Positions 21,677 through 23,511 of a DNA stretch of 64,000 nucleotides are shown here, piece after piece. The number at the start of each line of letters is the position of its first letter. Positions within the stretch are counted from its first letter, which is position 1. The notes beneath the pieces are model-generated. The model searched no databases. It was not told the origin of the DNA and saw only the letters and a program-made list of their open reading frames with translations. Source of the stretch: Gemmatimonadota bacterium (GTDB lineage: Bacteria; Gemmatimonadota; Gemmatimonadetes; Gemmatimonadales; GWC2-71-9). Made by a program: the position numbers and the translations under genes. The stretch is taken from assembly GCA_003222195.1 (NCBI GenBank), contig QHVB01000028.1:155400-219399 (forward strand), in the 5' to 3' direction.

Positions 21677-22882
21677 TCAATCGGGGCGCGGCGTCTTCCA
21701 GTCGCTCGTCATGATGAACAGCGGCGCGCCATCGAACTGATAGATCGGCCGGAGCCGCTCGGTGTTGTAGTACTTCGAAACGTCCACGACCTTCTTCTCG
21801 GACGTCACACTCGCGAGCGGCACGCTGTCGTAGAAGCCGCGGTGGATGCTGACCAGGCGACCGTACTCCCGCTTGCGGATCAGATCGAGCGCGAGGTTGC
21901 CGAACGCCATCGGCACGATCGAATCGAGCGCGTCGGGATCGCCCGAGCGCACCAGGTAGCCGAGCCGCTGGTTCACCACGTCGATGCGCCGGCCGTTGTT
22001 GTACTTCACCGACGATTCCTTCAGCGCCGTTCCGATCTGATCACCGATCCCGCCGAGCTTGCGGTGCCCAAACATATCCGTCTCCTCGCCTTCGAAGCTC
22101 ATCCCCTCGTGCGAAGTCAGGCGCGCGCCCTCGGAGATCAGCACCACAGAATAGCGGCTCGGATTCTTGTTGCGGTCCACCGTCAGCAGCTCGGCCAGAT
22201 GCTCCACCTCGACCGGATATTCCGGGATCACGCACCGGTCCGCCGCGCCCGCCATCGTCGGCAAGAGCGCGGTAAACCCGGCGTAACGACCGAAGACCTC
22301 GATCACGAGAAACCGCTCGTGCGAGCCCGCCGACGTGCGCAGCCGGTGCGTCAACTCGATGGTCCGGGTGACGCAGGTGCTGAACCCGATGCAGTAGTCG
22401 GTGCCGTAGACGTCGTTGTCCATCGTCTTGGGAATCGCGACGACCTTCAGCCCCTCGTCGTGGAGCCGCTTGGCATAGCTCAAGGTGTCATCGCCCCCGA
22501 TGGGAATCAGGACATCGACACCGATATGCTCGAGGTTCTTGATGACATCCTTGGTGATGTCGTTGATCTTCTCGGTGTAGCCGGTGAGGTGCGGCGGCGC
22601 TCGGTCCTTCGGCAGGTGGCTGGGCCGCACGCGCGAGGTATGGAGGAACGTGCCACCTGTTCGTCCTGCGCGGTTCACGATCGCTTCGGTGAGGGGGATG
22701 ATCTGCTCGCTGTTGTCGGCGTTCTTCTCGCGCGAGTAGTCGACCAGACCGCCCCACCCATGCCGAATGCCGATGACGTTGTAGCCGTCGCGCAGCGCGC
22801 GCATCGTGATGGCGCGGATGGCGGGGTTGAGGCCGGGGACGTCGCCACCACCGGTGAGGATGCCGATTGTGCCCTTGGTCAT
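21677..22882 (-). CDS. 6-phosphofructokinase, predicted pyrophosphate-dependent type
   Basis: The 401-residue enzyme begins MTKGTIGILTGGGDVPGLNPAIRA and belongs to the PfkA fold, which phosphorylates fructose 6-phosphate in glycolysis. The phosphoryl-donor loop reads GGDD at 129-132, and the next motif is IPKTMDND at 151-157. ATP-dependent enzymes have GGDG and PGTIDND at these places. The Asp and Lys seen here are the known markers of PPi-dependent phosphofructokinases, so a reversible PPi-linked reaction is predicted. The ATG at 22882 is preferred over a GTG at 22924 because it gives the family start. It is divergent from the candidate selenoprotein gene, with 53 bases between the starts. 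Confidence 0.93.
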   Translation of the reverse strand: MTKGTIGILTGGGDVPGLNPAIRAITMRALRDGYNVIGIRHGWGGLVDYSREKNADNSEQIIPLTEAIVNRAGRTGGTFLHTSRVRPSHLPKDRAPPHLTGYTEKINDITKDVIKNLEHIGVDVLIPIGGDDTLSYAKRLHDEGLKVVAIPKTMDNDVYGTDYCIGFSTCVTRTIELTHRLRTSAGSHERFLVIEVFGRYAGFTALLPTMAGAADRCVIPEYPVEVEHLAELLTVDRNKNPSRYSVVLISEGARLTSHEGMSFEGEETDMFGHRKLGGIGDQIGTALKESSVKYNNGRRIDVVNQRLGYLVRSGDPDALDSIVPMAFGNLALDLIRKREYGRLVSIHRGFYDSVPLASVTSEKKVVDVSKYYNTERLRPIYQFDGAPLFIMTSDWKTPRPD

Positions 22883-22935
22883 AGTGCGAAAAACATAAGC
22901 GAATCGGTGTACTATTGAAGACACGGGGGGGACCC

Positions 22936-23511
22936 ATGAAAATCGACTTTCGGCAAGATGTCGATCGCGTGCTACAAGACGCGAAAGCGCACCAGAAACC
23001 AGTACTGCTGGACTTCAACGCCGCTCCAATGTGAAGTGGCTGTGCTCGGCTGGATGCCGAGGTGTGGCCGGACGAGCGAGTGGCGCGTTTCGTACACGAC
23101 AATTTCCTCGCCGCGCGCGTGCATCCGCGCCAAAATCCTGACGCCTTCAAGCAGTACAGCGAGCGCTACGGGGCCCCCTGGACGCCCACGATTCTGCTGC
23201 TGGACGCCGATGGGGTGGAGCATCATCGCATCGAAGGGTTTCTCCCCACGGACGATTTCCTGGCCCAACTGATGCTGGGCCGGGCCCGCATCGGATTCGA
23301 CCAGGCGCAATGGGCGGAGGCCGAGCGCCGGTTTCGTGAGATCGTGGAGCAATTGCCGAATACCGACGCGGCGGCCGAGGCGCTTTATTGGGCGGGCGTC
23401 TCACCCTACAAGGCGACCGGAAATCCCGCGTCGTTGAAGGCGACGGGTCAGGCCTTCAAAGGGCGCTACCAGGACACGCCGTGGGCAAAGAAGGCGTCCG
23501 TCTGGACGTAG
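22936..23511 (+). CDS. Candidate selenoprotein: thioredoxin-like UxxC protein with in-frame TGA
   Basis: The frame starts MKIDFRQDVDRVLQDAKAHQKPVLLDFNAAPM after a G-rich ribosome site. It meets TGA at codon 33 (23032-23034) and continues in the same frame as SGCARLDAEVWPDERVARFV to a TAG. Reading TGA as selenocysteine gives a 191-residue protein with a thioredoxin fold, an active site U-S-G-C, a cis-proline segment APWTPTILLLD and a helical TPR-like tail. A hairpin suited to be a bacterial SECIS follows. Coding character is continuous on both sides of the TGA. Alternatives are a nonsense mutation of TGC/TGT or a base error. Translating only downstream of the stop would lose the first strand and the redox residue. 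Confidence 0.75.
23045..23061 (+). promoter_or_regulatory. Candidate bacterial SECIS hairpin
   Basis: CTCGGC at 23045-23050 pairs perfectly with GCCGAG at 23056-23061 around the five-base loop TGGAT. The two loop G residues are 18 and 19 bases after the TGA. In the E. coli fdhF element the corresponding loop GG is about 19-20 bases after the UGA, and known bacterial SECIS elements place a loop G in a similar range. The hairpin lies inside the coding sequence, as SelB-dependent elements do. Its role is inferred from position and shape only. Confidence 0.6.

Follow-up and report, generated by a model that had tools for sequence, protein, structure and literature searches.

The gene under study occupies positions 22936-23511 on the forward strand of a stretch of 64,000 nucleotides from the MAG of a soil bacterium of the Gemmatimonadota, referred to here as the window. 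It opens with an ATG at 22936, preceded by a run of G residues (22925-22931, forward strand) that may serve as a ribosome-binding site, and reads 32 residues before it meets a TGA at 23032-23034; the same frame then continues for 158 codons up to a TAG at 23509-23511. With the TGA taken as a residue the product is MKIDFRQDVDRVLQDAKAHQKPVLLDFNAAPM-U-SGCARLDAEVW..., a protein of 191 amino acids in which the TGA is codon 33 in the context APM-U-SGCARLD. A first-pass annotation of this DNA had given these coordinates together with the segments SGCARLD behind the TGA and APWTPT further downstream, and all of them proved right on re-reading. Its placement of the TGA at the first position of a CxxC-type motif holds as well, as the motif reads U-S-G-C here and the codon is TGC in one homologue (L185). 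In place of a conserved G-run the relatives carry differing purine-rich stretches upstream of the ATG. A hairpin, CTCGGC-TGGAT-GCCGAG (23045-23061, forward strand), starts 11 nucleotides past the TGA and has the GG of its loop at +18/+19, again as first described.

As to the neighbouring genes, the first-pass annotation was correct in naming a translesion polymerase gene, which is of the DNA polymerase IV type (dinB), but its PPi-type phosphofructokinase is doubtful: the product of 21677-22924 passes the model of ATP-dependent phosphofructokinases (264 bits, cut-off 253) and scores far below the PPi models. Both genes flank the selenoprotein candidate in its closest relatives only. Among the best 80 of 96 loci that a scan of GTDB genomes yielded, there is no consistent neighbour, the largest clusters being sensor kinases at 13 loci, and the function of the gene is therefore not readable from its context.

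The product matches the Pfam domain PF13098 (Thioredoxin_2) at 55.5 bits (cut-off 27), as do all 63 aligned members of the family, and this domain combined with a UxxC motif is the mark of the selenoproteins known as thiol:disulfide interchange proteins. An AlphaFold2 model generated with 63 relatives has a mean pLDDT of 97.4 and places a thioredoxin domain at about residues 1-112, followed by a short TPR-like helical tail at about residues 105-190. The best Foldseek matches of the model are DsbD-gamma structures (2fwg and 2fwe, E about 1e-7, 24-26% identity), and DsbD-gamma is also matched by the profile of the thioredoxin half; the tail is closest to the TPR proteins BamD, YbgF and CpoB in fold and profile matches, and TPR_6 was detected in 47 of the 63 family members. 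Invariant across the 63 relatives are U/C33, C36, W82, P84 and G101. The predicted structure and these matches indicate a fusion of a DsbD-gamma-like thioredoxin domain with a short TPR-like tail. Since the domain starts right at the N-terminus, with no hydrophobic segment and no evident signal peptide, the protein is probably cytoplasmic.

The model also bears on whether the TGA might end a genuine peptide of 32 residues, the thioredoxin and TPR region being translated apart from it, for example from the GTG at 23062. An open reading frame of 149 amino acids does begin at this GTG. However, the predicted thioredoxin fold spans both sides of the TGA, in every relative the upstream and downstream residues belong to a single aligned protein, and the invariant pair is formed by U33 together with C36. 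We therefore give separate translation practically no chance of being correct.

But why would a TGA stand within a conserved active site? In draft MAGs a lone in-frame stop often reflects an error or decay, and the gene might be a pseudogene, or might owe its stop to a Cys codon that was mutated or misread to TGA. Comparison with relatives speaks strongly against this. Among 121 genomes around the host that were searched for full-length relatives, every such relative contains exactly one internal TGA (carriers are G000, G002, G004, G006 and G007, and G049, with two copies each in G006 and G049, and, at about 30% identity, G056, G031 and G046). The same TGA is found in seven further genes from five genomes of the same family, at 74-88% identity. 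The GTDB scan made use of two search patterns, one of which leaves out the site and so gives no preference to TGA, and in all of the best 80 of its 96 matches a TGA stands at the same codon, down to about 30% identity; in 79 of these loci it aligns directly and in the remaining one (L134) the aligner sets it one column off, still within U-I-G-C. The matches listed carry the labels Gemmatimonadota, Acidobacteriota, Verrucomicrobiota, Eisenbacteria, Deltaproteobacteria/Thermodesulfobacteriota, Nitrospirota, Planctomycetota, Armatimonadota, Poribacteria and Chloroflexota. Judged from these alignments, the TGA and a hairpin just after it are retained by nearly all of the relatives, which span at least eight bacterial phyla.

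When 395 genomes of the phylum were considered, all full-length matches that span the site were found to have the TGA except for L185 in genome G311, which has TGC, and hence Cys, in the context WSPGCKGC. In G311, which has a completeness of 98%, tRNA-Sec scores reach no more than 47 bits, as ordinary long-arm tRNAs do, compared to 70-82 bits in seven TGA-carrying genomes searched alongside it. The TGC thus coincides with the lack of a tRNA-Sec score above tRNA background in G311, and Cys seems to have taken the place of Sec in a genome that has apparently lost the Sec system, albeit in this one case only. A conserved in-frame UGA and a Cys homologue, by which bacterial selenoproteins are recognized, are both present, and a random residue was never encountered at the site. 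Moreover, when the window is compared with six relatives, the differences cluster at the third positions of codons before the TGA as well as after it, and downstream of it the comparison with G002 gives 16, 11 and 63 differences at codon positions 1, 2 and 3, respectively. The gene is therefore not a pseudogene: purifying selection continues behind the TGA and, as described below, synonymous codons are frozen there. The comparison refutes decay or a sequencing error as the source of the TGA, and we attach only negligible probability to it.

Several genomes of the same genus lack the gene even though they have the Sec trait, and the gene is therefore dispensable. Two copies each occur in G006 (contigs C212 and C246) and G049 (C38 and C129), all with the TGA; three of these four copies lie near a contig end and some may be assembly duplicates. 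A homologue from Thermoanaerobaculia (L114, 5001-5561) has a second in-frame stop beside the Sec TGA, which may be an error, a sign of decay or a second Sec codon.

The published model of bacterial SECIS elements (bSECIS) calls for an upper stem of 4-16 bp, a loop of 3-9 nucleotides with a G in loop positions 1-2, a spacing of 16-37 nucleotides from the UGA and a minimum free energy of at most -7.5 (PMC13188914). The window hairpin fits it, with 6 bp, the loop TGGAT, a spacing of 16 nucleotides and -10 kcal/mol. The fold predicted around it reaches -18.1 kcal/mol over 45 nucleotides and includes a possible lower stem in which 23037-23041 would pair with 23066-23070; this lower stem is not conserved in the clade of the window gene (type A, see below) and the extended hairpin (23037-23070, forward strand) is therefore weak. 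How much weight can the hairpin carry by itself? The window has 65% GC, 72% of its TGAs precede some bSECIS-like geometry, 2.5% precede a bSECIS-like hairpin with at least six Watson-Crick pairs, and 11% of its 45-nucleotide stretches fold at least as stably. We have consequently rejected the strength of the hairpin as proof, and since such hairpins are common by chance in a GC-rich window the case rests on comparison. What lies above the chance level in the sequence data is the TGA in the relatives, the third-position substitutions, the frozen codons and the covariation of wobble bases.

The last two of these emerge from two registers of the hairpin within the family. In the clade of the window gene, which is a single clade on the tree (support 100/97), the element has the form CTCGGC-TGGA[T/C/A]-GCCGAG with the loop 16 nucleotides past the TGA (type A). 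Among 26 unique genes of this type, with 41-89% protein identity to the window, codons +4 to +9 are frozen: CGG, CTG, GCC and GAG are invariant (26/26), and Ala is encoded by GCT in 25 of 25 Ala codons as compared to a GCT usage of 7% elsewhere in these genes. Further along the genes, conserved residues show normal synonymous variety. All other members have an element of the form GGRTGC-NGTNAC-GTAYCC with the loop 23 nucleotides past the TGA (type B). In this type the wobble base of an Ala codon pairs with that of the adjacent Val codon in all 57 sequences (A-U 37, C-G 13, G-C 4, G-U 2, U-A 1), which none of 100,000 shuffles equalled, and covariation also links an Asp/Gly codon to the wobble base of a Tyr codon (A-U 40, G-C 15, G-U 2; Fisher p = 6e-12), where both tests count the sequences as independent though they are related. 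A formal count of pairs in 29 type-B sequences gave 100% paired cells and a covariation of 0.334 versus 0.112 after shuffling (0/500), and the signal was lost when the pairing was slid, a control that keeps the relatedness of the sequences. Both types have the bSECIS geometry (PMC13188914), while in a few type-B members the core hairpin by itself is less stable than the limit of -7.5 kcal/mol. From these comparisons the SECIS RNA structure is under selection, as seen in synonymous freezing in type A and in covariation in type B.

Five type-A loci (L108, L112, L113, L179 and L180, some of which duplicate one another) retain the capacity for all six stem pairs of type B, and the two hairpins therefore overlap. 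From a midpoint-rooted tree we infer that the SECIS would have moved from the type B to the type A position.

The host genome encodes most of what would be needed to decode the UGA. It contains a tRNA-Sec with anticodon TCA (77.8 bits), selA (534.9 bits) and selD (392.9 bits), so that selC, selA and selD, the genes expected of a bacterium with selenoproteins, are all present. The selD gene (G000 C17:261399-262331; L200 about 1535) is itself interrupted in frame by a TGA, in the context SHGAGUACK known from Sec-SelD, and SelD is a second selenoprotein of the host. In contrast, selB was not found in the host assembly by HMM, by the protein of a sister genome or by its flanking genes, which turned up only EF-Tu and other GTPases; of the four genes that the first-pass annotation suggested looking for, three are thus present in the assembly. 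The sister genomes G002, G006, G007 and G008 carry selB. In sister genomes it is bordered by a BtuF-like gene on one side and by a small ORF and then clpB on the other, and the host assembly gives no close match to any of these three neighbours. Even though the MAG is rated 99.8% complete, the concurrent absence of selB and its usual neighbours makes it probable that selB lies in an assembly gap; the missing neighbours suggest such a gap and do not prove that the gene exists. Across the 121 relative genomes tRNA-Sec, selA and selB are common in this Gemmatimonadota order, and the absence of the Sec trait from several near-complete genomes of the order suggests repeated loss.

With selB missing from the assembly, canonical decoding is only partly shown for this genome, and this would be in favour of a TGA that is read with a standard amino acid, either through a reassigned code or by near-cognate read-through. 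Yet TGA terminates 15 of the 37 long open reading frames in the window, those of both neighbouring genes included, the genome has tRNA-Sec, selA and a TGA-containing selD, the hairpins are SECIS-like and covarying, and the Cys homologue fits the exchange between Sec and Cys that is expected of Sec. We regard such a reading as highly improbable, if marginally less so than decay or separate translation. Taken together, the TGA in the relatives, the Sec genes and a hairpin that fits the published constraints and is under selection bear out what the first-pass annotation had proposed, and we are nearly certain that 22936-23511 is a bona fide selenoprotein gene whose UGA33 would be read as selenocysteine.

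How would such a protein be made and act? At UGA33 the downstream hairpin, with GG in its loop, would recruit SelB-GTP with Sec-tRNA-Sec to the ribosome, and selenocysteine would be inserted in place of termination. U33-S-G-C36 would then form a selenol-thiol pair, presumably working in the reductase direction, in which Sec33 may attack a disulfide or an oxidised thiol and Cys36 resolve the intermediate, with Pro84 as the cis-proline. The tail would probably dock substrate or partner proteins; substrate and reductant can only be inferred.

Alternatively, the protein may mainly be a TPR chaperone or scaffold in the manner of CnoX, whose selenol protects clients by forming mixed bonds with them instead of serving as a general reductase of disulfides. 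The CnoX/YbbN chaperedoxin likewise combines a thioredoxin domain with a TPR domain behind it (PMC8129009), and Foldseek lists a thioredoxin-TPR protein of Salmonella (3qdn). The 3qdn match is poor as a whole, however (rmsd 10.8), the TPR part comprises about 80 residues as opposed to two five-helix subdomains in E. coli CnoX, and the thioredoxin domain is DsbD-gamma-like. In addition, the active site is of the UxxC type, whereas E. coli CnoX has SXXC and Caulobacter CnoX has CXXC. Because the tail is shorter and the domain belongs to another subfamily, we treat the likeness to CnoX as an analogy, and a chiefly chaperone-like role seems possible though unlikely. The selenol-thiol reductase is our preferred view of the function. 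Different from DsbD-gamma, the window protein stands alone without membrane domain or evident signal peptide, has Sec in place of the first Cys and carries a TPR tail. A full-length DsbD protein-disulfide reductase was ruled out, as model NF001419 gives 37.7 bits against a cut-off of 330, matches only at its positions 460-569 of 574 and leaves the membrane domain unmatched. The best NCBIfam match is the C-terminal domain of TsoB, a rhodanese/DsbD fusion-like selenoprotein (NF045694); with 47.9 bits against a cut-off of 805 this identity was dismissed as well, and the window protein has neither a rhodanese nor a membrane part.

Selenoproteins with PF13098 and UxxC are a known category. They were reported from Geobacter metallireducens, G. 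uraniireducens and Syntrophus aciditrophicus (PMC1794560), are listed as 'thiol:disulfide interchange protein' (PF13098 / cd02953, representative WP_011366075.1; PMC13188914), and are credited in reviews to an early survey. The window family shares domain and motif with them and, because it too has members in Geobacteraceae (L159) and Syntrophaceae (L140, L156), it is likely the same broad family, as compared by domain, motif and taxa. In the descriptions of the category examined, however, a TPR tail, members from Gemmatimonadota and a pair of SECIS registers are not mentioned. We found no thioredoxin-TPR selenoprotein described in the literature searched, the published selenoproteome surveys examined make no mention of Gemmatimonadota, no NCBIfam model covers the family in profile comparison, and a plasmid search returned weak thioredoxin-like matches only. 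The TPR fusion, the near-exclusive use of Sec and the two overlapping SECIS registers thus seem undescribed. We hold it an even question whether all of this amounts to a broad, uncatalogued and nearly always Sec-containing thioredoxin-TPR family whose SECIS has moved by 7 nucleotides, with one clade at +17, the rest at +24 and some members able to form both. If so, overlapping hairpins would offer a possible path by which a SECIS can relocate without loss of Sec decoding.

Standard annotation is expected to split or drop the gene, and with this and the lack of an NCBIfam model the family is easily missed in the genomes of soil and sediment bacteria. As comparative evidence for a bacterial SECIS loop, the covariation of wobble positions is unusually clean, and the two registers, with some members able to form both, are a testable case of SECIS evolution. 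The finding adds to Gemmatimonadota and many other phyla a selenoprotein whose tail may bind partners, and the near absence of Cys versions among the relatives found suggests that selenium matters for the chemistry of this protein.
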